A stretch of 64,000 nucleotides of DNA. It comes from Isoetes taiwanensis (lineage: Eukaryota > Streptophyta > Lycopodiopsida > Isoetales > Isoetaceae). How positions within the stretch are numbered: position 1 is the stretch's first letter; each line of letters opens with the position of its first letter. The stretch spans positions 2,895,089 to 2,959,088 of the forward strand of contig JAJEKV010000101.1 of assembly GCA_021234155.1 (NCBI GenBank), given 5' to 3'. A program made the translations under genes and the position numbers. The notes beneath the pieces were generated by a model that was not told where the DNA came from, searched no databases, and saw nothing but the letters and a program-made list of their open reading frames with translations. Shown here one piece after another: positions 5,991 through 63,685 of this stretch.

Positions 5991-7850
5991 ACTCTTTATG
6001 CGTGAATGTCAAAAGGCTTTTCAAAGATCACTTATTTCTTCATGCAATAGAATGCCAAAAACTTTTCAAGATCACGATTTTTTTTTTACAATGCTTTTCA
6101 TGAGTGTGCATCCATTGATTTTACTTCTTCTTTTTTTGGTTGTCTTATTTCTTATATTTACACAACAAGAAGCTTTTACCATATTCCCCTACCGAATACC
6201 GCCGTAATGCCATATACAGAGGATGAGAGTTGTTTTGGCGGGATGTGTGTCGACGCCAAGCATTCTACCGTTAGGTATTCCGGGTCCGGGCAAATTCTCT
6301 CCACTTCAACACTTTTTGGCCTCTACATTGACCGCTTAGAGCCTGCTTACTAAGCATGAGGGGGATGGCATGTACAACTTTGTACCAAGTCACCTGGGCC
6401 ACCATCTATGCGACGATGTTGGACCTTTCCCCGCCCACACCTCCCGTAAGCTAAGGGCCAGCCTCATCCGCCACCTTGCATAATATTCTCAGCTGCTACG
6501 ACATGCGCGGAATCTGGCCAAGACCAGGTGGTTCTCATATCCTCTTTCACGCTTTACCCCCACCGGGTGACTCACATATCTGGGGACAAGCCCAGTGGGA
6601 GGTCAATGCCTCACCTACAAGTACCTAGGGGTGGAGAGTTCCCTCCCCCGCCTCATAGGAGGCCCATCCGGCTAAGGTGACAGCCAGGGCCGAAAACGCT
6701 TTTATGCCATGCGTGCATCAACAGCCACCGCGTAGCCTCTACATGATCGGGGCCATCAACACATCTGCTTCGTGTGTGCCGGTCAGCCCGCCCTTCCGTG
6801 AGGTCGAAAGTGCTAGGGGCCCTGGCTTCAAATTTTGGCGACCAATTCGAATGACTTGAGCAAAAAGTGAAGGCATTTTGGCACCTGCACTTGGGTGAAA
6901 CCTTCAGCCCCCATCGTGACTCTCTCTGGCCAAGTAGAAACCGATTCTTGCCTCTTCACGATGTACCTCTTGATAGACATACATCGCCTATTTTCGTAAA
7001 AGTGGTTACTATGGGTGATGTTACCTCGCGACTGCTTTTCTTTACGCCGGGTGGGTAATGGGGCCCGGGCAGCTGCTCGTGGGCCTCGCGAGGGGTAAGA
7101 GAGACGCTGGTTCGCATGGAACGCGTGTGAGCAATGTATGTGCGCGGTAGTGGGACATATATAGAGGCCCCATCGCGGGACAAACATGGGAGTACCTGAC
7201 GCTTTGCTTCCTCGGGTAAGCTCGGGACCCCCGCCAGCCAGAGCAAAGCCAAGACGCTCATTACAAGGAGCACATCAAACCCGGGCTACACCCCGGCCCT
7301 CAAGTAGCCTCTACCAAGGCTTCCACCGGCCTCGAAAAGCGAGATACTCATTGCCTCCATTCGCATGTGCCTACCCACCTTTGCACGAGACTTCCGGGCA
7401 GTGGGATTGGGAGCCCCGCCGATTGCTGGCACGCCGACGGGCTATTGAGGGATGAGTTCCCACACTTTCCGTGAGTTGCCCAAAGATTCGGGGCCGTGAT
7501 CCCGCCGATAATGCCTTTAGTACCTACTACTGCCCCTACATTTGCTAATGAACACACCCTCATTACATGCCTCTGTGTATCGCATATCCGTGAGGTGTTG
7601 ATCCGCGGAGCCCACCCCTTTTGCCCCTCTCTCTCACCGGCCGCTCACCGACGCACTACGTACCTGCATACGAGCGTATATATTTTGCAGTGCTCGGCAT
7701 TTCCTCGTAGATATTGGAATGTATTTGTCGTACAGCTGATTGTCGCACCAGTTTTCCTAAAAATCGGGGTTTTTCAACTGGGTAGTAATCCGGTCGCTTT
7801 TGTATTGGGTCCCATAGACCCATTGGTCTCCTCGTGGGATCTATGAAAAT
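5990..7850 (+). mobile_element. Non-LTR retrotransposon (LINE) reverse transcriptase, wrecked (copy A)
   Basis: Aligns with 39,060-40,850, where the reverse transcriptase is readable. Here the YADD-like block and flanking motifs are broken by frequent small indels and no frame exceeds about 120 residues. The block is GC-rich against an AT-rich background, as in copy B. Confidence 0.65.
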
Positions 7851-10800
7851 ACCTTCTTTTTTCTTCCAAAATCCAACAAGAAAAGGCCTAAAATTTTGTG
7901 TTTTTAACCATGAAATGTATATTTATTGTAAATAGCTTGGAAAAATAAAGACTTCAAGTCGGATTGTTGGATGAGATTTCACAAATGGAAATCATAAATT
8001 GAAATAGATGGCTCATAAATCATGCTTTATATTCCCTTAGGCACAGAGCATGGAGACAAGATCAAAATTGTTACAATGGGCCTTTAATGTTCGGCTTCTA
8101 TTTGGTGTAACCTTTATCTAGCCTAATATGAATACAATTTCATAGTCAAATTATCAATGTAAGGGAATTTGTTACTTTATTCAAAGAACTCCAAGGATTC
8201 ATAAATGATCTTGGGAAAGTTCCTAACAATCCAAAAAAGTCCTACAATTTTAAACTGTGTGGCCATACATTTACCCAAATGATCCATTTTACTCATATTC
8301 CCTCCGAAGTTTTGGGGGAAAAAGCTCATTTTCTTACCTCAAATCATTATTATTGATAGTCAAAGAGGAGATTACATGTTTTAAATTGAGCATATATTAA
8401 TGAAAACCAGCCCTATGTATTGATAGAGTCCTTTGTGGAGCCGGCGGAGATTTAGTGGAAACATATATATTCTGTGACACTATCTAGGTTCAAAGACGCT
8501 TAATATTAATTATATTTCAAATGGAATTAATGGGCATTATGCACCCATCGCCTCTTTCCAAGCGAGAGAAACTAAGAAAAGGAGAAATTTAATTTCAATA
8601 ACAACAATACAAAAAAATTAATTTTTATTTTGGTTTAAATCAGAGTTCTTCAAAGGGTCTTATCTAAAGCGTAGTAAATCGTGTATCTCATGTTCCATCA
8701 GAGCTCCCAGAGACAAAGAGCTCAAACCTCGGGTTTATAGAAACGGCTAGGCCATCTAAGGACAAAGCAAGCATTGGTATATAGTCATCCATGCCGAGTC
8801 CCAAACATACTACTAGATATTTAAGAATTTATTCCTCGAATCCTAAGGACTTTAATTTTCACATCATTTTTAGATCAAGAGAACTTTGGAGTCGCTCACT
8901 TTAAAATGTGGAGCAAAAAGATATCTTCATAAAAAAATAGGTGAATCAAGTTGGAAATGATTGAAGGATTTCCAAGAAGAATAGATATGTTTGGTGGATA
9001 ATGACCCAATTAAGTGTCGCTTTGAGTATGGATCAGTTGCATAAACTCTCCAACATGGCACCTAGCGGGATGAAGTTGAAGAAAATTGGGTATCCTCAAG
9101 TAACACTAAAATGTTTAATCCCCCTACGCTGCCTATTCTCTTCCCCAAAACAGGGACCCCAGATATGTAAGAAAAAGCCAACGCCAAAGACGTTGATTTG
9201 GTTGAAAAATTATTTACAATTTTTTGCACTCATATTTGGTGTACTTTTGTAACTGCATATAGTTTATATTCATATAAAAGATGCTTTTTATGAAGAACTC
9301 TGACTTTTTGCATTTTTCTTCCTTATAAAAAATTCATCTTATCTTTACCTTATTCTCATTTGCTATGCTTTGTTCTATCCAATGCCATGCGTAAGTATAT
9401 AATACACAACTCATGCATTATTTCTAATAATTCACTTTCAGAAAATGACGCGCATAGGGCACACACGCACGCGCGCGCGCGCGGGTGTCTGCACGCATGT
9501 GCCTTCACGCAAATTTTTAATCAAAATCTAGTTTAAATGCCCGAAGTTCGAAAAAAAATGTGGAATACCCCCAAACAATGAAATTGGTGGTTAAATTGAG
9601 CCTATAGGGTTATTGTCGCTTATGCATTGAGAAAGATAGTCTATGGAAGTTTTAACATTTCTCTCGGATAAGCCAGAGGTGTGGAGGTTTGTAGTTATTA
9701 TAGGTACTTTTCTGCAATGACGCTTTGAGATGATTGCTTTGGCCTTGCCAGTCATTTACCACGCCCAATCCCTTTCGGTATGGCTTTTGCCCTAATGTGT
9801 GACTTTCGTGAGCAAAACGAAAAGAAGCTTGTGTTGTCATTCTAACCGCCTATAACAAGATATGTGGGATGCAAACCATAGAAGGCCAAGATATTGGTAA
9901 TGTAGTATGATGATAGAGGGTTTAAATCCTCAATTGTAATACTTCAAATCTTATCCTTTGTAATTTTATGAAATGGAGAGTAGCATATGATAGTCCAAAA
10001 TCCGGCACTACATTGGAATGTGGATCTTACTTTGAGGGGCCAATTTCTTGGATTATAGATTGTTGCTTCTGATCCAAAATGTTAAAAATTCCTTTTGATC
10101 CAAAATGTTAGAAATTCCTTTTGCACCGTGATCCTTATATGATATTTCTATGGCAAATTTTAGGCTAAAGGGAAGTTCAAATCCCTATCCCACATGCAAG
10201 AAAGCATCTGTTGTACTTTTGTATTTTGTGGCAAATTTCTGGGCTTTGAAGAAGGGTTCAAATCGTGATTTATTTTTTATGCAAGAACGCATCTAGGTAA
10301 TTTTTGTTGGCTATGGTTCAATAATTGTAGTGTGATATGGAAAATCTAACTCCATCTTCATTTCCAAGGGCAGCCCTGCTTTGTCCATTGGTAAATATCC
10401 CTTCTTACATTAATGTTAAGTTTTTAAGACCAGGAATCAACCATTAGGGAATGATGCAAAATAAACAAAAGTTGTTTGAACCAAAATTAGTTCCAACCTT
10501 GGCAGATCCAGTTTACTGTCAAAAGGGGCCTCGACCCTACCAGACATAACAATTTTTGTCTAGTTTAATGGTGAAAATAGACTTCATTCTAGGTGTTGGC
10601 ACAGTGCTTGAATTTATATCAACATATGCCAAGTTTTAAGCCAGCATTACATTGCCTTTGAAGCAAAACAGGGTTGGAATTTCCTTATCTTCATAGCAAA
10701 CGTGCAGGCACATGCAAAGCCCTCTAATTGTGCATACAAATCAAAGGCCTGTACAAGAGCTTGCATATGATCACACTTCTCGTGTATTACAGTTACAACT

Positions 10801-22540: not shown

Positions 22541-22630
22541 GATCCTCATCCTCTTCGATTCATCCTCATCCCCGATCCACGATCGATCGATCCCGATCCC
22601 CGATCGATCCCGATCCGATCGATCGACCCG
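22540..22630. repeat. GATC-rich simple repeat
   Basis: A run made almost entirely of GATC, CGAT and CCCGATC words. GATC is palindromic, so both strands look alike. It lies just downstream of the last recognisable exon of the DGQH gene. Confidence 0.85.
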
Positions 22631-23869
22631 TATGATAGAATATAGTTGTTAAGTCTGGATCATCTAGAAGAAAACATTTTCATGCACTGCTTTTGTCACT
22701 CTTGGCTTTAGCATTATCATATTCCTCATTTGACAGCATAGATATCATAATGAAGATCACATATGCCATCTCCAGTGCTCTTCGCAGCTCATTATCCCTA
22801 ACATCAGATATTAGGCATCCCTCCCTAATAACTTTGAGGCACTCCAGATCATGAGCAGCAGATAGTGCATGTAGATGTGAGTCACCTGAAGGACAAACGA
22901 TGACAATAGTAAAGGACCTCTCAGCTGTCAATCCTTTACAGCTGGTAAAGAAGATGATATAGTCCTTCTGGTTCATCTCCATGTCTCCTCTCCTACCTCT
23001 CTGTCCAATACAAAGAGTGATATGTTTCTAAGGCAAGTAGTTGATTTTGGCAAGAGACCTTTGTACCCAATGGAGACTGACTACTGGACAGTGTCTTCTT
23101 CTCCAATAATCTTCTTCATACTTTTCTTCTCAACTCGACCAGTATCTTAGGGGGCAGAGTCTCTTTATGTTTTACATTTTTAGCCTTCCAATTCTTTAGG
23201 AAGTCCTTTAACCAAAATACAAACTTCTTAATGTCATCATTACTGACCTTGTACTTGTCCAGCAATCCAAATTCAGATAATGCAACATCCATCAATAGCC
23301 TTTATAATTCGGTTCCTATAGTTGTCTTGTACGTACATCCTTCACATGGCTGCAGCACTCATGAACGAAGGACATCCTATCCTTAGCGAAAGCACTCTTC
23401 TTGTACAAGGCTTCCTTCTTCAGGAACTGGTTTAAAACCCAAATGGTCTCAGTGTCGTCTAGCCCTTGAGTCATTTTCATCTCTGTTACATTCAAGTCAA
23501 AGATGCTTACATCAACAGTATCTGACAGCTTCTTTTGTGCATAAGCGTCACAGAATTCATTCCACGCCATACTACCTCCTTAAAAAAGGCAATCTTATAC
23601 GAGTCTGTTGGACTTGACATGCTAGATGTGTTATCAGAAGGATCTGCATTGTCATCACTACCTTTTTTCTTCGATTTTCTTGCAGTCTTTTTCGTCTCCT
23701 GTATAATTGTCTGCGACAGACTCCGCTCCAGCAGCTTGAATGCCTCAGACTTTGACCCGCCCTTTCTCGTGGGTAATGGGCAGCCATATTCCATCCATTC
23801 TTGACGGGCATGGCGCAGTTACTCGGCATATGGACTACAATAGTACAGAAATTGGATCAGTATCTTAGA

Positions 23870-24105
23870 ACAGAAACACGCCTAACGCGAATTGAATTGA
23901 TTTAAAAGCACGCCTGTTAACACAATTCATGTCAGGCGGTGTCCTCACATCAACGCAATTCGTGCCAGACGTGCTTTACGCTATGTAGAAAGTATGCCTG
24001 GTGCGAATTGAATTGATCAACATAGAAAGCACGCCTGGCGTGAATTGAATTGAATTAAAAGCACGCCTATTAACGCAATTCACGCCAGACGTACTTTTAA
24101 ATCAA
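23870..24105. repeat. Left subterminal repeat array
   Basis: About six degenerate copies of a motif around AAAGCACGCCTGGCGTGAAT followed by TGAATTGATTTAAAAGCACG, some inverted (CAATTCACGCCAGACGT). Some copies are joined by GTGCTTTACGCTATGTAGAA. Matched by the right array. Confidence 0.85.
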
Positions 24106-24106
24106 A

Positions 24107-24134
24107 GGTCTAAGTTAGATATTGGGGTACAAAA
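24107..24134 (+). repeat. Terminal inverted repeat, left
   Basis: 28 bases identical to the reverse complement of 31,604-31,631. Similarity continues imperfectly inward (GCTTTTCGTGCTTGATCTGC on the left; AGCAGATTAAGCACGCGAAG on the right, read inward). Confidence 0.9.
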
Positions 24135-24299
24135 GCACCCGTCCGGACGCTCTGCTTTTCGTGCTTGATCTGCTGTGTTTGGGGGTGCTTGGAGAGCGGG
24201 AACACGATGATCCGTTTTTAGCAAATTGCTTAGGATCGATGACATGGCTGTTCAGAAAATCAAATTGGTTCAAAATGATCCGGCGCTGGATACTGTTTT

Positions 24300-27200
24300 T
24301 GAGATGTATGGGTCTGTTTCTTGAATTCTTTTTGTGGCGGGAATGATCATTCAGCTTGTACCTCCAAACGAAGCGTTCTTTGTAGATCCACGGTTTCTCA
24401 GTCTTTGCAAAATTCTACGTACATCACGATCCTCAATGGATCAATCAGTTTTGATTTGGATGAGGAAAAGAGACTCAAAGTTTTCGGGAAATTCAAGCCG
24501 AGAGAAGAAGGCAATCAAGGCAATAAAAAGAGAAAAGAGAGAGAGAAAGAAAACTTGCACCGAAATTGAGCGAGGCTCGAGTCGCGAGAAGGCTTCAAGA
24601 ATTGTCCAAAAAAATGGACGATTATTTCAACGAAATCACAAAGCCTTTGAAAGAAGGGGATAAAGCAATGGTGGTGCATGTGATTTGTGAAGAGAGTGAA
24701 GGCGAAATTGCCATTTGGGAAGTGGATTTTGTTGATCATGATCAAAGCAAGATCATGAAGAATGTGACTAAAAAATGTTCAGAGAGACACTCAATGAACA
24801 AAAGAAATTAAGGAAGAGCAGATGTATTGCAAGCAAGAAAGTCTACTTTGCAAATGGTATCTTCATCAGCAAAATCCATCAACCAATCTGGCCACACCGT
24901 CTCCTTCATATATCTAGAAAATCTGTTGTTGCCGCAACCGTAAGAAGAATAATGTAAGACCAAGAATGTGGTCCGTGGGTCAATGTTTTCAAGGAAAAAG
25001 AGGTGTGATACATTGAGTGACGAGGTTAGGAATTGTGTTTACAAGTTAAGACCGGACAGTAAAAACACGAAGTTTCACCATACTGAAGAAGCATGTGAGA
25101 AAGTTTGTTCTGGCCAGATGGCGATAAAATTGATCATCCAATACAACCGCTTGAAATATCTCGGGTGATTTCCACGCTTAGTATGTTTCTTACATTTGCA
25201 TATATCCTGTTTCTATGTAGATCTTCTTTGTTTGCGGTTGCAATTTTACATGAACTTCAAGAAGGAATATAATGACATTAAGATTACCCAAAAGCACATT
25301 TGAATTCTTTGAAGCCATCATTTGTGGCGCTTTAAATGAAAGAGAAACTTGTCACGCCAATATCACATGCACTTTGAATATGTGATGCAAGCACTCAACA
25401 AAATCGAAACAGATCCAAATGGCGTGCATAAAGATTGCAACCGTACTTGTCTTTGTTTGTGGTGATGGTAACTTTTGTGCGACCAAGAACCATGTTTATA
25501 AATCCACTAGTGATTTTTGGAGGCAAATGATCCGCCCTAAGGATGAAGATGAAGCGTGGTACAAACATAATTGTCTGATGGTGGCATGCAAGGATTGTGG
25601 ATTGAAAAGGTACTCTTTTTTTAATGTTAAGATGTTTGAACATTCTATTTTGAGTTGTTAAGATGATTGATGCAACATCTTACAAACAAATTTCTGTGTG
25701 GTATTACAAACAGGTTGCCAATATGTCCAAAGGAGAAGGAGGAGTCTGATTACAAAGTGGAGTGTAAAAACAGTTTGAAAAGGTAGTGTATTTGGCATTT
25801 GTGCTTAAATGATTTTTGTGCTTGTGATTGTTGTGCTTGTCTTTGTAAACTTACAAACTGATCTTTTGTTTTCAAAAAAAAGCAAAGAGGTTGGTTACAT
25901 GAAGGAGACCACCAAGAAAAAAATGGCAGGAAAGAAACCAGCAAAGGTAACTAGACTTGCATACAAGAAAGAGAGCCTGCCCCAATTCCAGCAGCATGCT
26001 TCGAAGACACTGGTACAATTCATCCCACACAATTATGTTGCACACTGGCAGGCAAAGCAATTCAGGAAGTGCTTGGATACTTTTCCTGAAGGTGCAGTTG
26101 TCTCGGTTATTGATTTTGCTGAAAATTACAGTTTTAAAATTCAGAAAGAGGCACAATCTTGCCAGCTGGCGCTATCGATCAGGCATCAATTTTGGTTCAT
26201 ATCACATATAGACATGCACCCCGGGATGAGATAGAAGATATGGAAGCTAAGGAAGCGAGAGAAGGGAACTAGAGAAGGAAAAGCAAAGAAAGAAAGAGGA
26301 AGACAACTCGCCAGATCATCGGCCAGTAATGAGAGGAGAATCATAAAGGAAGTACATTTTTATATTTCAGATGATAGAGATCATAGCAGTGAGTTTGTAC
26401 AACATTGCTTGAAAGTTCATGCATTGGTGGCTCGAGTACAAAATATTTTGTACAACAAACATATTTTTGGAGTGATGGTTGCACAAAGCCAGGTTCAAAG
26501 GAGCAAGACCTTTTGGTATTTAGGAAGGAACTATGTCAATAGTGAAGGAATTGAGTATGAATGGAATTTTTTGCCACTCTCATGGGAAAGGAGAACATGA
26601 TGGACAAGGTGCAATCCTAAAAAGGATTTTGCAAGAGAACAATTGAAGTATGATTCCCGGAAATTGAGCTGCCAAAGACGTTGTGGATTTCATGAATTGG
26701 TATATGATGAACAACCCACCGGACCCAAATATAAGAAGGTAAATTCAATGGGTACCATTGCATTCTTCTTCATTTGAGGTGACATTTTTCTGTTCTATAT
26801 TGCGTGTTTTTGGCATATTGAACCGAAAATGTAGACAAATCTGAAAAAGAGGGAATGGAGATCACTTTGTGGGAGCTCTAAACTTCATTCCATCAGACCA
26901 TGTGATAAAACAAATCCTGCAAAAGTTGCCCACGAGGTGCCTCTCTTGTTTCTCCCCTTTTGCTTTCATGGGAAATGGGATGATTGCATGAACAAAGCTT
27001 GATTGGGAGCTTGGTCCACAAATGAACTGAAGTTGAAGAAATCTATGAGAAAACAATCACCAACAAAAGCGGTTCAAGATGAAGATGAGGATGAGGATGA
27101 AGAAGAGGATGATGATGAGGCTAATGAATACCTCAGTTCTGTTCTAGAAGTTGGAGATAACTTTGCTGTAAATGCAGATCCAGAGGATGATTAAGGAGTT

Positions 27201-27480
27201 GACTTTTATGTTCTTAGGTGTCTGAGACTAAAAAATACATTGTTAGATGCATATGAAGACTCATGGGGTTCTCGCATTTGGTGTGGGAGAAGTCATAGTT
27301 TCCGCCACTACTACAAGCGCATTGAGATGCACTCAACTTTGAGTTATTAGTGGACAAGCCAGTTGCTAGTGTGTACAGTCACCTTATTAGACAAGTGAAA
27401 TTTGATATGGAGAGTCTTGGCAACAACAAGTTCAAGATGAGTGAAGAGACATGCCAAAAAGTGATGGCATCCCTTCACGT
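24300..27480 (+). pseudogene. Transposase-like gene, DFAENY / SDG / HGKG family, frameshifted
   Basis: The core is at 25,860-26,640. A lysine-rich lead is followed by FIPHNYVAHWQAKQFRKCLD and then VVSVIDFAENYSFKIQKEAQ. In the next frames come QxSILVHITYRHAP, a WSDGCTKPGSKEQ block near 26,465 and HGKGEHDGQGAILKRILQEN near 26,580-26,640. This order (D in DFxENY, D in SDG, then WxFFATSHGKGxxDG) is that of a widespread, poorly characterised eukaryotic protein family found in animals and plants and often multicopy; I take it to be a DDE-type transposase. Upstream (25,419-25,661) a Cys/His/Trp block (W...HNCLMVACKDCGLKRYSF) fits the family's N-terminal region. Downstream (27,003-27,240) an acidic linker precedes GDNFAVNADPEDD and DFYVLRCLRLK. 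Four or more frameshifts or introns separate the blocks. Confidence 0.6.
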
Positions 27481-28229
27481 AGACCGCTAACTGCTGCCGA
27501 CCGTTTTTCGCTTACGCTTCAAGAGGCGTAAGCACATCATTCACATGTAAAGTGGCTCATTGCTGCTACATTGTTTCTAACAAACCTATCAATGGAAGCT
27601 AACAAATTCTTTGTTGCCACGAAATTTGTAGTCCCGACCGACTTTGTGCAATGTATCTTTGCCGGTGCTTTGGTGCTTTTCTCGCTTTGTCTGGCCGTGC
27701 TAATTGTTTTCGCGAGTTTATGCTTAACATCGTCATCCCCTTCGGTTTGGTCCTTGGAAACAAATGGTGGAAACTTTCGCAAGTGTTCAATTGGGGGATC
27801 AAGCCAAGACAATGCACAAAGTAAATACTCTAAACCCTTTTTACATGTATATGTTCAAAGATTGGCTTCATATACGAGGTTTGTTTGTTTAACCAATTAG
27901 GATTTGGACTTCATCTTTGGATACGTAGACAAGCATAGGAGAAACCATTACATTCAAATATAAACTGGGACAACAATTTTGCAAGTAGAAACTCGCAAGT
28001 GCGGGTAAATATTATATTCATTAGATACAAAATTGTTACAATATATGTACAAAGCGTACAACTCACTTGTTGTAATCATTCTGATTACATCTGAGCTAAG
28101 TTATATAAATATTGAAAAGAATCTATAGACTCTTATTCTACTGCGGAGAATTCCCAAGGTCGCATCATTTGAAGTGCCGTGTGATAAAGAATAAGAGTAG
28201 TATCGTGTGTTTTATCTTCTCTTGCGTGC

Positions 28230-31200
28230 TCTTCATCCCTCGTTCATTGACAAAATCAAGATATTACCTGCAGGATTGTTATTATTATCTTCATGTACTT
28301 TATCTCCCGCCTGCATCAGTATGTTTATACTTATATCATCTATGAAGCCTTGTAGCTTAGACATCTCCTGGCTACCAACTTGTACTTCTGTTTCTATTTT
28401 CTCCAAAACATGCTCCATGTGAACACATTTGTTTATCTGTTTCTATGTTGCTATCATTTTTATTATGAGTTGATGCAGCAGAGTAGTTACCTCAATTGCT
28501 TCCTCGAACCGCAGAACTTCTAGGTTCTCGTCAAACCAAGTAATTCAAATCAAACAACATACAAAAAATGCAACTAAATGAATTGAAAGCAATGACATTA
28601 CTACAATCACTTCAATAGCATAACAACACAACTAAATGAAATTAAACAACATACCTTAACAATTTCCTTCATTAACTGAATGCTTTTGAGAATAGCCACT
28701 TTCCACCTCGCTCGCTCACTTAGATGGTCAGCCAGAAGCCTAAGTATATCGATGTCCTCTTCTTGAACTTTATCTTCAACATACCGCTTTGCGGTAACCA
28801 CTTTTTGAGGATTCTTGGCATGGAGCCAAGTTTCAGAAATGCAGACTAAGAAATTGAAACCTTTGTCATTGATGTCATTATCAAATTTTTCAATTATGAA
28901 GCAAGTGTCTTGTGGGGACAAGAAAGTCTTGTACAATGAGTCATCAAACTAGCACTAGCTCCCCTACATCCTCAAAAGCCTCATACACTTTTACAATTGG
29001 CTTCATAAGCACTGGCTTGTTCGGATTCCCCGGAAAATTGAAAGGCATCACCTACGCACTCTTCGACCCCAAATGAACTTGAACCTTCCTATAAAGGAAG
29101 GTGGCACTATAACATTTAGGATTTCTATGATGTTGTGCTTCATCATAGAAGACCATATGGCTACCTCAAACCGGCAAAGCACCCTTCTAAAAACTTTTAT
29201 CATACAGTGCAGACACCACCACTTTCCCCGCATAATGCTTCTTCTCTGTTTGAATTTTAATTTCGGTTCTTTTTGGAATGTGCTCACCAGAACTCCATTT
29301 AAGTCTAGGATGACAAGTTTTTCTTTTCTAAGGGTGCGCAACATTCATAAAACAAAAACTCAAACATCAATAATTCCGACATCAATTTAATGGGGTCTTT
29401 AAATTCAATTCAACAATTCGGGAACATCAACAATTCAGTCTTAAATTTAACATCAACAATTACGACATCAATTTAACGGTCCTAACATCAATTTCGACAT
29501 CAATTTACTTGCTTATTTCAAAGTTTTAGGAACTCATTAATCGAACCCGGACGACCAGTTAACATTTTGTAAATAACATTCTGATGATCACCTTTTGGAG
29601 GTTGTGTTGGCATCTTCTTAGGGGGCCTATCCTTCTTCTTTCTCCATTGCGGTGCTTGTACTTGTTCTTGTTCTTCTTCTACATTCTTCCCTTTATCAAA
29701 GCATTTGTTGCAATGTGATCGCACCACCGGCTTCTTCGTCCCGGATCTACAACTTCATCAACCCCGGAGCTTTCTCCTGCGGTTCTACTCCTCAACCTCG
29801 ACTTTTTATGGTGCTCACAACCTGCAAGCGATACTGTTCGGGCTCTTCTTCTTCATCGGTCTGTCAACCACTAGTGCACGCTTTTACTCTCTTTTGGGCT
29901 TTTCCTTAGCAACTCGAATCGAAGGAAACTAGTTAGAATAGACATGAAATAAAGTTTACAAAACAAACACATAAAACACCAAATGGTTACCTTTTTAATG
30001 CTTTCAGCGTTGTAACAGGACTTGGTGATGCCTACGCCTTTTGTAACAGGTTTTGGTGATGCCACGGCTGCTAGAGTATAATCGAGAACTAATGGAGACT
30101 CAAAGAACAAATTGTGGTGAAGAATTTGATTTGTTTGTAGGGTGAAACAAAAGCACTACTAGTGCCACGCTTCCAAACCCATCACGATGGCTACCTCACT
30201 CCATCTTCAGCTCCAACTTCTAAAACCAAGTTCCACAAACAAATCCCTCGAACTTCCTTTAAGCACCGAAGCATGCCTTCTTTTCATACGAGCATGCAAC
30301 ATGCCAAGTGATAGGCATGTTCACATGGCAACTTCATACTCAAAGTATATTGTGGATTGAATACCAATCCACATGCAAAGACATGAGTTCTCCATAAAAC
30401 ACGGCAACCGCTCTTCATAGTCATGATAGAGATTCTGAAGTGTCTGGTGCATCAACCGCCTAGCGAGCTTCTAAACGACCACGCTTTCTTGAAGTCCTGA
30501 ATTTAAAGAGGCTTTTAGCCTTTGCTTCTTCTCCCTTCGTCTCTTTTGCTTCAACACTTACCTTTGGAAGGCAAGCTTCGGTTTGGAGCGTAAGTAAAAC
30601 TCTCCACTTATTTTATGCTTCAAATCGCAATGGGTCAAATCTTCATCTGTTTTATCCGCTTTGTCATTCAAAGTGATAATTCATTCTCAGAAGTCTACTC
30701 ACCTCCGTCTTTGCTATATCAATCATTACTTGCTCCGTGCTAGGGAGTTGTTGTCAACCTCAATCTTACTAATAATCTTAGCCAAACTGCGTTTTGACGG
30801 TTATCTAACTCGTTTCCAACTTCTTTACTTCCTCATCAATCAAAGAAATATTGAAACTACAATTGCAAACAGAAAATTCATTTTGGCTGACCTGATTTCG
30901 CTTTTAATTCCATCCGAGGTGTTCTTCTTTGAAGGCTGAGGTGTGCTTTGGCCCGAAGGATGTCACGGTTTTCATTTTTTAACATCTTTCTTTACATCCA
31001 TATCATCCCTTGGTTTTTTCTCGACCAAATAGTAACCCGTGACTTGTATGCATCCCAATTTATCTTATGACCCTCATGATCTTGCTCGACGCGACCACAA
31101 TGCTCCCAAGCAAATGCCAAAGCAACGAAGTTTCCTCAATTCGTTGTTTGGTAATCCCGGAATCGTGATACGTGAACTCGACCAAGTCCTCCAATTGTTG

Positions 31201-31349
31201 CTTCAGATGAGTGCGGACAAAATAAATTTTTATTTTGCCTTTTTTCTTTAAAGGATTGAATGGTTTGTCCATACCACCGTTTCAATCTTCTTGATCCATG
31301 ATCCCGCAGCCCGCCGGTTTTTGGCGAGGAATAATCCCTTCTCCGCCAT
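28230..31349 (-). pseudogene. Transposon cargo gene with FCP1/NIF-like phosphatase domain
   Basis: The minus-strand blocks may form one gene. The N-terminal exon starts at 31,349 (MAEKGLFLAKNRRAAGSWIK) and continues frame-shifted into YFVRTHLKQQLEDLVEFTYH. A basic middle block at 29,518-29,727 has HCNKCFDKGKN and KKKDRPPKKMPTQPPKG. At 29,344-29,048 is KLVILDLNGVLVST followed by CRFEVAIWSSMMKHNIIEIL. These match the FCP1-homology (NLI-interacting-factor-like phosphatase) fold of the HAD superfamily, where plant members often carry DLNG in place of DxDxT. Near 28,936 an acidic-pair loop before SLYKTFLSPQDTCF, in shifted frames, fits the family's second acidic motif. The end (28,418-28,233) is a helical acidic block. 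Frames are broken in several places, so activity cannot be claimed. Confidence 0.5.
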
Positions 31350-31603
31350 CGAAAAAAAGCGTTGAATTAACCAAAGAGCAAGGTATGAAGCAAAGGAAGA
31401 AAAAAAATCTCGAAAAGCAGAGGGTACAATTCGAACTGTAAAGTAGGGTATAATCTGCGTACAGCAGATCAATTATCGATTTCGGCGCGAATGATTACGG
31501 GTCTGACAGCCCAGATCATTGTTTGCGAAATGGCGCGCGGGAAACGAGAAGGTGCGAAGAATAGCTGCTTCGCGTGCTTAATCTGCTTCCGCTTGTCGCG
31601 CTT

Positions 31604-31631
31604 TTTTGTACCCCAATATCTAACTTAGACC
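31604..31631 (-). repeat. Terminal inverted repeat, right
   Basis: Perfect inverted match to 24,107-24,134 over 28 bases. The subterminal array follows immediately outside at 31,632-31,745. Confidence 0.9.
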
Positions 31632-31745
31632 CTCAAGGCAATTCGCGTTAGGTGTGCTTTACGCTGTGTAGAAAGCACGCCTTGCGTGAATTAAATTGAT
31701 TTAAAAGCACGCCTGACGTGAATTAAATTGATTTAAAAGCACGGC
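31632..31745. repeat. Right subterminal repeat array
   Basis: About three copies of the same motif as at 23,870-24,105 (GCACGCCTGACGTGAATT, ATTGATTTAAAAGCACG), including the GTGCTTTACGCTGTGTAGAA link found on the left. Confidence 0.85.
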
Positions 31746-32840
31746 TGAATATTAAAATGATAACATTTTACTGTAGTTAATTACCTTTTGTATAGAAACA
31801 TTTTTTCCATTTCGTTTGGTTAATCTTAGCCATATCTGCAGGTGAAGTATTAGCATCCAAGAATCGACATCTCCTATACGCATAGTGATTGTAGAACATT
31901 GTTTGGCCTGTTTGTTCTACCTGCATAATAAGGGCCTTTTGTGCCTCAACTAAATGCTGCCCATCGATGATGACGAATTTAATCTCATCATTTCCTAATA
32001 ACTCCTCGGCATTCGACCACACAGCAGGCTTGTTCGCGATCGAATCCCAAGGTAACACATCTGTTGGCGTAGGCATTTGACCTGGATTACTAATCATGCT
32101 CTAAACAATCTCCATGGCATGTGCTGAATCATATGTTCTGCTAACATAAATGGAGCTTGGTGAACGAATGAGGTGCTTCACATATATAGAGCTGAAAAAT
32201 TGTCTTAAGACCACATGGATAATGGTCAGAGTACTTATTCAGCTTGTTTATGGCCTCCATTTGCGCCACCCTATCTTATTCTTTCTCAAACCCGGAAGCC
32301 TCTATGCCCTCGACAACCACAGGTTGAACATCCTTCCCTTGATTCAGGACCCTCCTAGAAGCTTTCAAGTCAGCTAGTTCTCTAGCTTGCTGCAGGTAGT
32401 GACTTGGTGTCGGTTTATTGAACATGCCTCTACTCACAGCTGTAACCCCGTGGCAAATAAATATTGGTGTAACTGCTACATTAGTGGGCCAACCATACTT
32501 AAAACATGTCTCACCGTTCACATCTGTCTTCATGAAAGTATCTTTGTATGCAGTAGCTCTACAATGAGTAAGTCTGATCAGATCTTTCTTCTGCTTATGT
32601 GTCATCTCCAAGAGCAATTTGCAGTTGACGTCGCCCTCTTCCTCACAAGAGATTACGATCCCTTGTTTGGTCATTTTATCTGCTTCCTTTTTCCTCGAGA
32701 AGGGTGTTAACTCGAGCTTGCCATTTGTCTTGGCGAGGTCAACGAACCACTCGGCACCCTCATCTATTTCCTCTTCAGGGCATGGAGGGGGTCAGTGGTT
32801 GCTTCATCATCTAAGGTGAGATCATATGGTATTACATCTG

Positions 32841-32998
32841 TGTAACGTTCCTAACCGACATGCCCTTAACCAACTGGGCAAAACCGTCTAGACGTTTATG
32901 AGTAGTCGCTTCTACCCATTTATACCGGTGTCTCGGGAACGCCCCACAGGCACATTCAAGGTTCGAATACTCGAGCGGTCTACCATGGGCCCGTTACA
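32841..32998 (-). repeat. TRIM LTR (3' LTR on the minus strand)
   Basis: Starts TGTAACGTTCC and ends GGGCCCGTTACA, forming inverted termini. It carries four extra bases (ACCG) relative to its partner. Confidence 0.9.
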
Positions 32999-33151
32999 GT
33001 CTCTCCTACTAAGACTATGCTCGTCCTCGAGCATCCAAGCTATACCATGTCTATGTCATACCACATCACAATGATTACCAAGTCTTTGCAAATTACCCAT
33101 GCATATAGGCACCCATGGAGACTCGAACTCGAGACCTGCTCTGATACCGAC

Positions 33152-47219: not shown

Positions 47220-48630
47220 TTACAAGGGGACCTTGTACTTTACACTATACCGTCAAGAACAAATATGCCCTACCTCGATCAGATGATTTGATGGATCAGC
47301 TGCAAGGAGCAAAGGTCTTCTCCACGATAAATCTAAGGTCAGGCTATCACCAGATCAGAATCAAGGAAGAGGACATCCGCATTCAGGACGAGATATGGTC
47401 ATTATGAGTTCACAGTGATGTCGTTTGGATTGTCCAATCCTCCAGCAACCTTCATGAGGCTCATGAATGATGTTTTCCGCGAGTTCCTAGATACTTTTAT
47501 CATAGTTTTCTTTGGTGACATTCTAGTCTATAGCAAATCCTTAGAGGAGCATGTCCAGCACTTGAGAAAAGTACTTGAAAAGTTGAGGAGGCATCAGCTT
47601 TTTGCGAAGCTATCCAAGTGTCACTTCGCAACAGAAAGAGTAGAGTACTTGTGGCATGTAATCACAGCGGAAGGGATCTCCACCGACCCTGCAAAGATTG
47701 AAGCGGTAATTGATTGGCCGGCACCAAAGAACATACATGAAGTGAGGAGCTTTCACGGCTTAGCAGAGTATTATAGGAAGTTCGTCAAGAACTTTGCAAA
47801 GGTGGCAGCTCCATTGACGGACCTCACCAAAGCAGGAAAGATAAAGGATTAGGCGAGTCATTGGCAAAGGAAGGCCCATGCAGCATTTAAGACATTAAAG
47901 GAAGCTTTAACGACTGCGTCAGTCTTAGTCTTGCCAGATCCAAGCAAGGATAAGCTTGTAGCGACAGATGCTAGCAAGATAGCAACGGAGCAAATTCCTC
48001 ATCATGAGGAGGGAAGGGTAGTCGCATACGACTCCAAGAAGATGAACGATGCAGAGCAACGCTACCCGACTCATGACCAAGAGCTTCTGGCCATTGTGAG
48101 GGCCTTGAGAATCTGGAGACACTACTTGTTGGGAAGAAAGTTCCAACTAGACATAGATCATCAAAGCCTCCAGTACATATTCACGCAACCACTCCTGAAT
48201 TTGAGGCAAAGGAGGTGGATGGAGTTTCTCGAAGAGTACGACTTCGAAATAGTCTATAAGCCAGGCAAGCTAAATGTAGTAGCAGATGCGCTCTCTAGGA
48301 GACCATTGAAGACAAGAACCCATTGCAACGCTATATCGACTCTCACAAGTGAGTATGGCAAAAGGATTGAAGAGATGTTGCCATCAGACGGCGACTTTAA
48401 AGAAGCGTGGGCAAGCCTCTCTAAAGAGGCAAGAACAGATAAGAAAAGGGAGACCTTCAAGCATTATAAAAAGGAAGGTAACCTCCTATATCATAAGAAT
48501 AAGTTGTGTGTACCAGAATCTTCGGGGGTAAGGAAGTTAATACTCCACGATACATACAACAGTCCCATAGCCGGGCATGCAGGGTTCATGAAGACATATT
48601 TCAAGGTCAGAAGCAGCTACTTTTGGCTCG
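47220..48630 (+). mobile_element. Ty3/gypsy pol fragment: reverse transcriptase, RNase H, integrase zinc finger
   Basis: The RT starts with [19 protein letters not shown], continues with [17 protein letters not shown], then (after a small deletion and shift) [20 protein letters not shown] and [20 protein letters not shown]. The catalytic F/Y-x-D-D reads FFGD, so the first aspartate is lost. RNase H follows a TAG stop at 47,850: VATDASKIATEQ, DAEQRYPTHDQELLAIVRAL, IDHQSLQYIFTQ and VVADALSRR. The integrase HHCC start is HDTYNSPIAGHAGF. The fragment then meets a foldback element at 48,631 and does not resume. There are no LTRs, gag or integrase core, so it is a truncated, inactive copy. Confidence 0.9.
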
Positions 48631-48788
48631 GCCATCTCTTTCACCTCGCCTTACTCCCTTTTCGATTTTCCTATTTGAATGATCTAAAGTGCCACCTAAA
48701 ATGAGTGAGCGAACTCATCCTAGAGGGCACTTTAGATATATCAAACATGACAAACAAAAAAAGACTAAGCCGAGGTGAAAGAGATGGC
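48631..48788. mobile_element. 158 bp foldback element (MITE-like hairpin)
   Basis: The 23 bp terminal inverted repeats are 48,631-48,653 and 48,766-48,788 with one mismatch (GCCATCTCTTTCACCTCG...). An inner perfect 12 bp pair, ATCTAAAGTGCC at 48,682-48,693 and its complement at 48,726-48,737, continues imperfectly toward a GAGCG loop. The transcript would form a long hairpin. No target duplication is visible, and the gypsy reading frame does not continue on its right side. Confidence 0.8.
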
Positions 48789-59649: not shown

Positions 59650-61845
59650 GAATCCTAGGAGTGCTACCCTTGGCAGTCTACCAATGCAATTGGGAATGGA
59701 TTAAAGAGGATATCTTTTCTACATATATAGATTTCTTGCAAGTTGACAATTTAAATCCAAGATTGAAAACATGTTGCATTACCTTGGTACCCAAGTATAA
59801 GGAGCCAAGCACAATTAATGACTGGAGGCCTATCACACTTCTATCTGCATTTGACAAAATCATAGCCAAGGCTATGGCAGAGAAGATCAAATCAATTTTA
59901 GCAGAAGGTACCTCACAGACCCAATTTGGCTTCCTTTTGGGTAGGAGCATTCTGAGCAATGTGGTAGCAGTTTTCGAAGGGTTGCACTGGGCCAGAAAAA
60001 CAGGTCAAAAGTAGCCTATCTAAAGCTAGATTTCACCAAGGCTATGACAGCATTAGATGGAGTTTTTTGCATAGAATGATGCTCAAGCTGGGTTGTGGGG
60101 AATATTTTATAGAAGGGGTAATGAAACTGTTGAGATCTGCTCGAGCCTCAGTCTTATTTCAAGGAGAAACAGCTCCAATATTTGACATTAGGAGGAGAAT
60201 CAAGCAAGGTTGTCCCTTGGCCCCCTTCCTCTTCAATATAGCAGCAGAAGCTCTCTCACAGATTTTCTTGCAAGCCTCTGTAGACGGTCTCATTCAAGGA
60301 CTAGAAATGTGGAACGGTTCTCAACAAATCTGTAACCAATTTGCAGATGACTCATTTCTGTTTTTAGAGGTAGAGGGAAATAACTTGTCATGTGCAGGCC
60401 AATTATTGGCCACCTTCTCAATAGCTTCAGGTTGCCTCGTAAATTGGAAAAAATGCTCAGTGCAGTGGCCTTTGGGGTATAGGCATCCTAAATATTTGGA
60501 AAGTTTACAATGGAAAATTATCCCTGAGAGCAAACACTCCAGTTTATTAGGAATCCCAATGGGCATGAACATCACCAATGCGCAAATATGGGACAATGCT
60601 CCTAGGCCTTCATAGACACTTAAATTGGTGGAAGGTAGCAAAGTTATCTCTTGCAGGGAGGATTACTGTGGCAAAATATGTGCTAAGTAATAGTTATGTA
60701 TACATGTCATCAATTCTACTTGCTCCTAGGGAGAAGGTGCAAGAATTAGAAGGGTTGATTTGCAACTTTGTCTGGGGAGGAAACAAAGATGCAGTGGTCA
60801 AAGTTGCTAAGTGGAACTGCAAGAGGGACAAAACAGAATAGTATTACAAAGTAAAGCATTAATAGCCAAATTCATATGGATGATCCTGCAGAAAAAGGTG
60901 AAGTCTCCAGGTATGCACCTCATGAACCAGGCTCTATTATTTTCATGCCCTCTGTCAAGGTATCGCTCCTATGGTCACTCTTCTTTGATCTTAACCAAGT
61001 AGAGAACCCCCCCCCGAAGGGACTTATTTCGGCTTGGAATGCCATAAAGAAGCTATTCACACTTGACATCAACAATTTGAAGCAGAGACCTCTCTATACA
61101 GCAAGACAAGTTTGTGAAGCCATGTTATAGTAGTTTGAAGACTAAGGGGTTACTTCCGGTATCTACCAAGTGGGAGATAGTGATCACATAGGACAACCTT
61201 AAAAACATCTGGAGAAACACTTGGCTGAAATACCTTCCTCCACAAATCAATGCCTTTCTTTGGCAAGTGATCCACAGGGTTCCAAGGTTAATCATCTAGT
61301 CACCAAATGGGACAATAATGTGAGCCCACTCTGCCCTTCGTGTAAAGAGGAAGAGGAATCCATAGAACATTGCCTGATGGAATGTAAGATGCTGCAAGAA
61401 GTCTGGGACTGGAGTCTGGATAGCTTTGAGTACTCTTTAGGAACTAAGGAATTGCTATTAGGAATTCTCACTCCAGAATGGTGTCCCATGAAGAAGATGT
61501 CATTTCACATAGCTAGAGCCTGGACAATTTGGTCAATATGGAAAAGGAGGAACCTCCTAATCTTCGATGAGAATCAGGAGAAATTCATATCATCAAACCA
61601 GCCACTTCACATGGTACTAGAAAGAATTAGAAGATTTAGGTTAGTGTTTGAAAGTGAAGAAGAAGTAAAGGAAGATATATAGGGCAGATATTTAAATCTG
61701 CTCTAAGTCGAAAAAGAGAGTAGTACAAGCTAGAGCCATGTAGCTATCTCCATCTCATATTCATAGATGGGTGCACCCTTGCCATGTGGCTTTCTATCAT
61801 TCTCTCTAAATAAATAAAATCTTTTTTATCCCTCAAAAAAAAGGG
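59650..61845 (+). mobile_element. L1-type LINE, 5'-truncated
   Basis: The reverse transcriptase starts within motif 1-2: CCITLVPKYKEPSTINDWRP, ITLLSAFDKIIAKAMAEKI and TQFGFLLGRSILSN. After a one-base loss near 60,043 it reads YLKLDFTKA then YDSIRWSFLHRMM, followed by RIKQGCPLAPFLFNIAAEAL and NQFADDSFLFLEVEG (the FADD active site). It goes on to NWWKVAKLSLAGRITVAKYV. The C-terminal zinc region is CPSCKEEEESIEHCLMECKM with IWSIWKRRNLLIF. The 3' end has AATAAAATCTTTTTTATCC and a short A run at about 61,838-61,845, typical of plant L1 tails. ORF1 and endonuclease are absent, consistent with 5' truncation on insertion. Several frameshifts make it inactive. Confidence 0.9.
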
Positions 61846-62782: not shown

Positions 62783-63685
62783 ATGAGGAACAGGCTCATT
62801 CGATCAAAGTGGAGAGCAAAAAATTGTGGTCAGTTCTATTGCCAATCTGCTTTGGTTGGAATACCCAATGGCTGGGTTTTAGGGTTTCGAGATTATGGAA
62901 GTTGCTCATATGCGATTAAGGCTTTACCGTCTAGCTCTCAGATAAATCTAAGTCTGTGGTATAGGCAGCCTCGATTGCAAAATGCATTGGTATACCTGGA
63001 AAAATCAGAGACAGAGATAGACACCGCTGCCTATGCATGTCTACTGCGGAGATGTAGCAAAGCAAAGGCTCTGTCAGAGGGAAAACTGGTGCATGATCAC
63101 ATTAGAAGAAATGGGCTACAGAATGATCTTTACCTTGGAAACCACCTTCTTGAGATGTACAGACAGTGTGCGAGCTTGGAAATTGCCAGACTTGTGTTTG
63201 AGGGAATTTCTAACAGGGATGTGATTTCTTGGACCATCATGATCGCTGCTTATGCCCAGAATGGCCATTGTAAAGAAGCCATATGTCTTCTCCAGCAAAT
63301 GTACTCAGAAGGCGTGAATCCTGATAGGGTTACCTTTGTGACATTGTCAGAGTCATGCACAGAACCAGAAGCCTTGGCAAATGGTAAAGTTATTCATGCC
63401 CGTGTTATCAAGAGTAGTTTAGACTTAAATGTTGTTTTGGAGACTGCAATTGTTAATATGTATGGGAAATGTGGGAATGCTGAGGAGGCTCGAAGGATTT
63501 TTTGTAGGATGCATCAACGTGATGATGTTTCATGGAATACCATGATTGGCATATATGCAGAATGTGGAGATTCAAAAGGAGGTCTAGAATTAGTCAGACT
63601 AATGCCTTCAGAAGGAATACTGCCAAATAAGATCACCTTCCTTGGCATCCGCAAATTTGGCCTTGAATTGAGGCATTTTGTGTAA
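62783..63685 (+). CDS. Pentatricopeptide repeat (PPR) protein, PLS type, short
   Basis: 300 residues. An N-terminal ~55 residues rich in Arg, Ser and Tyr could be an organelle transit peptide. PPR motifs follow: YACLLRRCSKAKALSEGKLV (about 90-110), a LYLGNHLLEMYRQCASLEIA block, VISWTIMIAAYAQNGHCKEA (about 148-168), VNPDRVTFVTLSESCTEPEA, VVLETAIVNMYGKCGNAEEA, and VSWNTMIGIYAECGDSKGGL. This is the P-L-S spacing of plant organelle RNA-editing/maturation factors. It ends shortly after ILPNKITFLGI, without the E/DYW domains usual for such proteins, so it is a truncated or frameshifted gene, or exon 1 of a split one. Such proteins bind organellar RNA one base per repeat. Confidence 0.85.
   Translation: MRNRLIRSKWRAKNCGQFYCQSALVGIPNGWVLGFRDYGSCSYAIKALPSSSQINLSLWYRQPRLQNALVYLEKSETEIDTAAYACLLRRCSKAKALSEGKLVHDHIRRNGLQNDLYLGNHLLEMYRQCASLEIARLVFEGISNRDVISWTIMIAAYAQNGHCKEAICLLQQMYSEGVNPDRVTFVTLSESCTEPEALANGKVIHARVIKSSLDLNVVLETAIVNMYGKCGNAEEARRIFCRMHQRDDVSWNTMIGIYAECGDSKGGLELVRLMPSEGILPNKITFLGIRKFGLELRHFV

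Follow-up and report, generated by a model that had tools for sequence, protein, structure and literature searches.

According to an excerpt of PMC10741241, DNA transposons of the Sola superfamily encode a transposase with three aspartates (DDD), generate 4-bp target duplications, mostly measure 2-9 kb and end in terminal inverted repeats (TIRs) of 11-1124 bp; they are present in Physcomitrella and apparently uncommon in flowering plants, and a Physcomitrella Sola1 is named in a table of PMC9033089 (likewise an excerpt). In that first excerpt, Mutator-like elements have duplications of 7-12 bp and Tc1/mariner elements TA. The element described here lies in a 64,000-nucleotide stretch of the Isoetes taiwanensis genome (contig JAJEKV010000101.1, positions 2,895,089 to 2,959,088; hereafter the window, to whose numbering all coordinates refer). 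It is a cut-and-paste element with exact ends, 4-bp target duplications and empty sites. Considered as a single package that also includes its accessory region and its attribution to Sola, the reading of positions 24106-31632 as a broken (degenerate) DNA transposon of 7,527 bp, moved by cut and paste, is probable. The window copy is best explained as a relic inserted into the repeat array of an older element.

When the window is compared with itself, the sole perfect long inverted repeat is 28 nt long (24107-24134 and 31604-31631), and the addition of one base on each side gives the 29-bp ends of the element (Table 1). The left 566 bases were used as a query against the assembly of the same genome (1,658,258,908 bases in 1,110 contigs). 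Among the best 40 of 594 candidates, 38 start at query positions 261-273, i.e. at the inner repeat or slightly ahead of it, the remaining two being the window itself and a copy located 33 kb upstream. Together with 20 regions of 9.9 kb retrieved from the genome, the window makes a set of 21; the right end was not found in four of these 21, and the 17 two-ended copies span 2.2 to 7.7 kb. A perfect 4-bp target duplication flanks 15 of these 17 copies, including the window copy, which has TCAA on both sides and whose first base has mutated to A. The duplicated tetramers (TAGT, ATTG, ACAA twice, TACT, AGAA, CATT, AACG, AAGG, TAGA, CTAT, TGAT, ATAT, TTAG and TCAA) show that the target has no fixed sequence. 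The duplication of L017 carries one mismatch, and that of L009, the copy 33 kb upstream, is out of the common register because the outer G has been lost. L012 and L017 keep both ends without any match to the transposase core, as non-autonomous derivatives do; internally deleted copies retain the terminal repeats and the 4-bp duplications.

An earlier note on this DNA recognised a real transposon but drew it as 7.9 kb long (23835..31784), with inverted repeats and subterminal arrays as its ends. Both features are present; however, the true ends lie about 150-270 bases further inside, and the arrays belong to an older repeat. A single 7.9 kb element ending in the outer arrays (23835-24105 and 31637-31784) is favoured by the presence of arrays on both sides, which hold inverted copies of one another, and by the copy 33 kb upstream, which likewise has arrays and element. 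However, nearly all of the best genomic matches start at or near the inner repeat, and the outer array has relatives elsewhere in the genome (104 matching pieces among the best 40 of 287 candidates scored). At L078, L079 and L080, i.e. all three homologous loci fetched, the element is absent and the window flanks meet with an exact 4-base overlap. At L017, the array continues without the window insertion, a different element copy being located elsewhere in that repeat. As for the upstream copy (L009, G000:C910:2885000-2894900), it is about 86% identical to the window across the whole 9.9 kb and has the same TCAA site, so it is, as judged from this alignment, a segmental duplicate of the window element and its flanks. 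Therefore, the outer arrays are the target and not the ends of the element, and the 7.9 kb reading, already refuted by the empty sites, keeps virtually no probability. End sequences without the gene, and the gene without them, which the earlier note had named as evidence against its proposal, were found for the outer arrays and not for the inner repeats.

The flanks (22600-24105 and 31633-33000), a gene-like sequence with AAGCACGCCTGGCGTGAATTGAATT arrays, are themselves a multi-copy repeat, pieces of which are 82-90% identical in L017, L078, L079 and L080. No Pfam match was obtained for their - strand frames. As for the putative intron that, according to the earlier note, the element fills, sequences resembling a splice donor and acceptor can be seen by eye on the - strand around 31780 and 23835, the surrounding flanks being repetitive.

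The + strand gene of the element carries the motifs IDFAENY, WSDG and HGKGEHDGQG, in the order that the earlier note had reported (DFAENY, SDG, HGKG..DGQG). This gene lies between the repeats in 11/11 full-length aligned copies, which bears out the physical linkage on which its identification had been based, and of the 17 two-ended copies 15 match the transposase core. Since copies hold the gene between the repeats, deleted copies keep the ends and a related family has related ends, its product is very probably the transposase of the element. Three aspartates, D63, D183 and D225, are invariant or at least 90% conserved among 17 core sequences. The fold check for an RNase H-like DDE core gave a consistent but low-confidence answer. 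The core model has a predicted local distance difference test score (pLDDT) of 55, and its order of strands and helices fits b1(D)-b2-b3-a-b4(D)...a(D/E); its comparison with known structures returned PIWI, RNase H, IstA and integrase chains as best rows, none of them significant. The three aspartates may thus fit a DDD RNase H-like core. The model of the 627-residue open reading frame (ORF; mean pLDDT 40) was not used. In the proposed mechanism, the transposase would bind the 29-bp ends through its N-terminal helix-turn-helix (HTH), excise the element and join it to target DNA whose strands are cut 4 bp apart, both cutting and joining presumably being carried out by the three aspartates.

The transposase pieces have no relative at useful scores in the Pfam release searched, in NCBIfam or among PDB sequences. 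The N-terminal part gave weak, sub-cutoff matches to IS3 and, in a relative, to HTH families; the IS3 transposase profile (E 0.0014, 18 bits for a cutoff of 160) and the weak library matches Phage_TAC_4 and CMIP6 were set aside. In viral contigs, two protein-based scans confirmed no relative, and none of 48 contigs with [IM]DFAENY has SDG and HGK downstream, although such patterns overlook distant forms and are no proof of absence. When HGR was also allowed, a single viral contig matched, but this match lies in an unrelated ORF and is interrupted by stop codons. Among prokaryotes, no relative was confirmed in a protein scan; at least 117 loci carry [IM]DFAENY, none of the 117 listed having the other motifs, and plasmids gave none, within the same reach of the patterns. 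A literature search whose scope excluded supplements and most subscription papers yielded no publication about DFAENY or about transposons that carry NIF.

A related DDD protein is found behind recognisably related ends in family B (L081, L222 and L223). The left ends of this family start with GGGTGCAAAATCGGTACTGGG or a close variant of it; about 35 bases in, they have the sequence GTCCGGACGC in common with the left end of the window element. In L223, a fuzzy right-end match at 9246-9273 gives an element of about 7.7 kb, and a 4-bp duplication, AGCA, one base out of register, is only probable. The shared sequence, located at 24141-24150 in the window, contains the palindrome GTCCGGAC and thus occurs at the left end in both of these divergent families; it was not seen at the right end of the window element.

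The most unusual part of the element, which the earlier note had missed, is its right half. On the - strand, convergent to the transposase gene, it encodes a RING-like coiled-coil protein and an NLI-interacting-factor (NIF; FCP1/SCP-type) phosphatase domain. In the window, the NIF ORF is broken and scores 18.6 bits against PF03031, below the cutoff of 21.8, whereas the unaltered open copies of L017, L019, L023 and L226 score 53.1-55.9 bits over the full domain. The RING-like piece stays below the cutoff (zf-RING_2, E 0.0025, 18.5 bits vs 27.3), as do its relatives. Among the 17 two-ended copies, the N-terminal piece of the accessory protein is found in 17, the RING piece in 16 and the NIF domain in 15, always on the - strand. 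The region extends to more distant relatives: L223 (transposase core about 50% identical) has the NIF (E 1.35e-17) and RING (E 3.9e-10) pieces ordered and oriented as in the window (tblastn did not find the N-terminal piece), and L225 (core about 68%) has both (E 1.7e-18 and 5.7e-12) in the same order. In L224 (core about 60%), neither NIF, RING nor the transposase C-terminus was found within the 5 kb fetched, and this element may be interrupted. Beside the family B transposase of L222, a relative of the accessory protein (7630-8647, + strand; RING piece 45% identical, E 1.8e-16) was observed; it was excluded as a part of the L222 element, as it is encoded on the + strand and located past the segment that L222 has in common with L223, and apparently belongs to a different element.

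Linkage was examined among 150 of 151 transposase matches and 150 of 153 NIF matches (4,419 candidates). Among these listed matches, 53/150 transposase matches have a NIF match within 12 kb, in all 53 cases downstream and on the opposite strand, and 45 of the 53 linked NIF matches are located 1,484-2,407 bases from the transposase match; when the NIF positions were shifted as a control, 1,000 trials produced 0.43 such pairs on average and never more than 3. The 53 pairs are copies related by descent and not independent events, and the partner of the 97 transposase matches without a listed one may lie outside the listed matches. Between subfamilies (L226 vs L017, L019 and L023), the ratio of nonsynonymous to synonymous divergence (dN/dS) of the NIF domain is 0.16-0.17, with dS of 1.10-1.16. 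For the transposase, it is 0.17 for L099/L082 and 0.11-0.14 for three other pairs, 17 of the 21 pairs being saturated. Within families, NIF values of 0.26, 0.34 and 0.79 each rest on very few changes. Many copies have open NIF frames, and the transposases of L081, L083 and L099 are open.

Because this region is found in divergent families, is linked to the transposase and shows low dN/dS, it has the look of an accessory gene retained over a long time and not of a one-off capture. It is quite unlikely that the phosphatase and RING-like genes are functionless passengers, i.e. host gene fragments captured once or repeatedly: plant DNA transposons often bear host fragments, the NIF active-site motif is altered and most fetched copies of the window family are broken, but the position and orientation are the same in divergent families, and both the NIF constraint and the many open frames argue for maintenance. 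The alteration concerns the motif, usually DxDx, which reads DLNG in L017, L019, L023 and L223 and DING in L226. As the second active-site aspartate is missing, phosphatase activity of the NIF-like protein is doubtful. This protein has no match among PDB sequences at E 0.01.

The accessory proteins would presumably serve the persistence of the element. Their role, for which anti-silencing or transposition control is a guess, would most likely be to counter silencing or to regulate the transposase or host transcription. It is tentatively proposed that a dedicated FCP1/SCP-type phosphatase-like protein, with a RING-like partner, has for long belonged to the life cycle of this transposon lineage; by a possible action on RNA polymerase II or chromatin, it would let the element evade silencing. 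A direct part in transposition (end binding, synapsis or target choice) in place of anti-silencing is somewhat unlikely. The conserved pairing and the similar constraint on both genes would suit it, and the plant transposons En/Spm and MuDR do combine a transposase with a second conserved element protein; however, no DNA-binding domain was recognised by Pfam in the accessory pieces searched, and the 5 kb of L224 showed no accessory gene.

Table 1. Features of the element, with the evidence on which each was delimited
Feature	Position in window	Strand	Evidence and remarks
Left target-site duplication TCAA	24102..24105		identical to 31633-31636; 4-bp flank overlap at 3 empty sites
Left TIR, 29 bp	24106..24134	+	first base A in window, G in 15/17 two-ended copies
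Transposase gene, broken	24436..27472	+	limits approximate: start codon ATG judged by eye, end set by tblastn
Transposase N-terminal part with HTH-like segment	24706..25164	+	tblastn; HTH by eye
Transposase Cys-rich part	25386..25658	+	open frame; counterpart in L081
IDFAENY, first aspartate	26109..26129	+	motif and alignment; Asp codon 26112
WSDG, second aspartate	26468..26479	+	motif and alignment; Asp codon 26474
HGKGEHDGQG, third aspartate	26581..26610	+	motif and alignment; Asp codon 26599
NIF (FCP1/SCP-type) phosphatase-like domain, broken in window	28844..29326	-	tblastn; Pfam PF03031
RING-like zinc finger of accessory coiled-coil protein	30215..30376	-	tblastn; Pfam RING models sub-cutoff
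Accessory protein N-terminal part	31037..31287	-	tblastn; weak relative in L222
Right TIR, 29 bp	31604..31632	-	repeat search and copy comparison
Right target-site duplication TCAA	31633..31636		copy comparison and empty sites

Elsewhere in the window, open frames resembling, by eye, a Gypsy-type reverse transcriptase/RNase H polyprotein (47337-48704), a long interspersed nuclear element (LINE)-type reverse transcriptase (59968-60615) and, over 300 residues, a pentatricopeptide-repeat protein (62783-63685) were observed.

For a transposase family that has no model in the Pfam release searched, exact ends, duplications and empty sites are now known, which opens its copies to annotation and testing. 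With a phosphatase-like gene as a linked and constrained transposon part, the manipulation of the host by a plant transposon becomes directly testable. If the proposal holds, a dedicated phosphatase-like protein would add a new type to the accessory functions of transposons and might in part explain the thousands of candidate matches of the family in this genome. In our view, the constrained phosphatase-like passenger is the new part.

Among two-protein plant transposons, En/Spm and MuDR are comparable in associating a transposase with a second conserved element protein, but differ in their transposase families, accessory proteins and duplications. The NIF-like domain gives a full-length profile match to FCP1/SCP-type phosphatases in L017, L019, L023 and L226; it differs from them in being encoded by a transposon and in having DLNG or DING where DxDx is usual. 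As to the superfamily, Mutator-like elements were ruled out by the 4-bp duplications, and Ginger, with its Gypsy-like integrase, finds no counterpart, as no integrase model occurs among the Pfam matches to the transposase pieces. The DDD motif and the 4-bp duplications make Sola the likely placement, set by features in print and not by protein comparison. For this reason, and given that neither Pfam, NCBIfam nor PDB sequences supplied a relative at useful scores, another or an unnamed superfamily also combining a DDD core with 4-bp duplications has been considered; it is unlikely, as every testable Sola feature fits, and the 4-bp duplications agree neither with the 7-12 bp of Mutator nor with the TA of Tc1/mariner. 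Indeed, the element shares with Sola three aspartates that are conserved without or almost without exception in 17 sequences (their catalytic role being predicted), 4-bp duplications without fixed sequence in 15/17 copies and at the empty sites, a 29-bp TIR, a size of 7.5 kb (7,527 bp) and a seed-free plant host. It differs from Sola in its NIF phosphatase-like and RING-like region, which is unmentioned in the excerpted Sola descriptions. A parallel for such a passenger is the Sola2 element with a captured Fanzor1 from Dictyostelids: in both cases, a passenger gene lies beside the transposase (Sola2-type in Dictyostelids) and duplications are of 4 bp, but, according to an excerpt of PMC3627910, the passenger there is Fanzor1 and the duplications are AT-rich, whereas the passenger of the Isoetes element is phosphatase-like.
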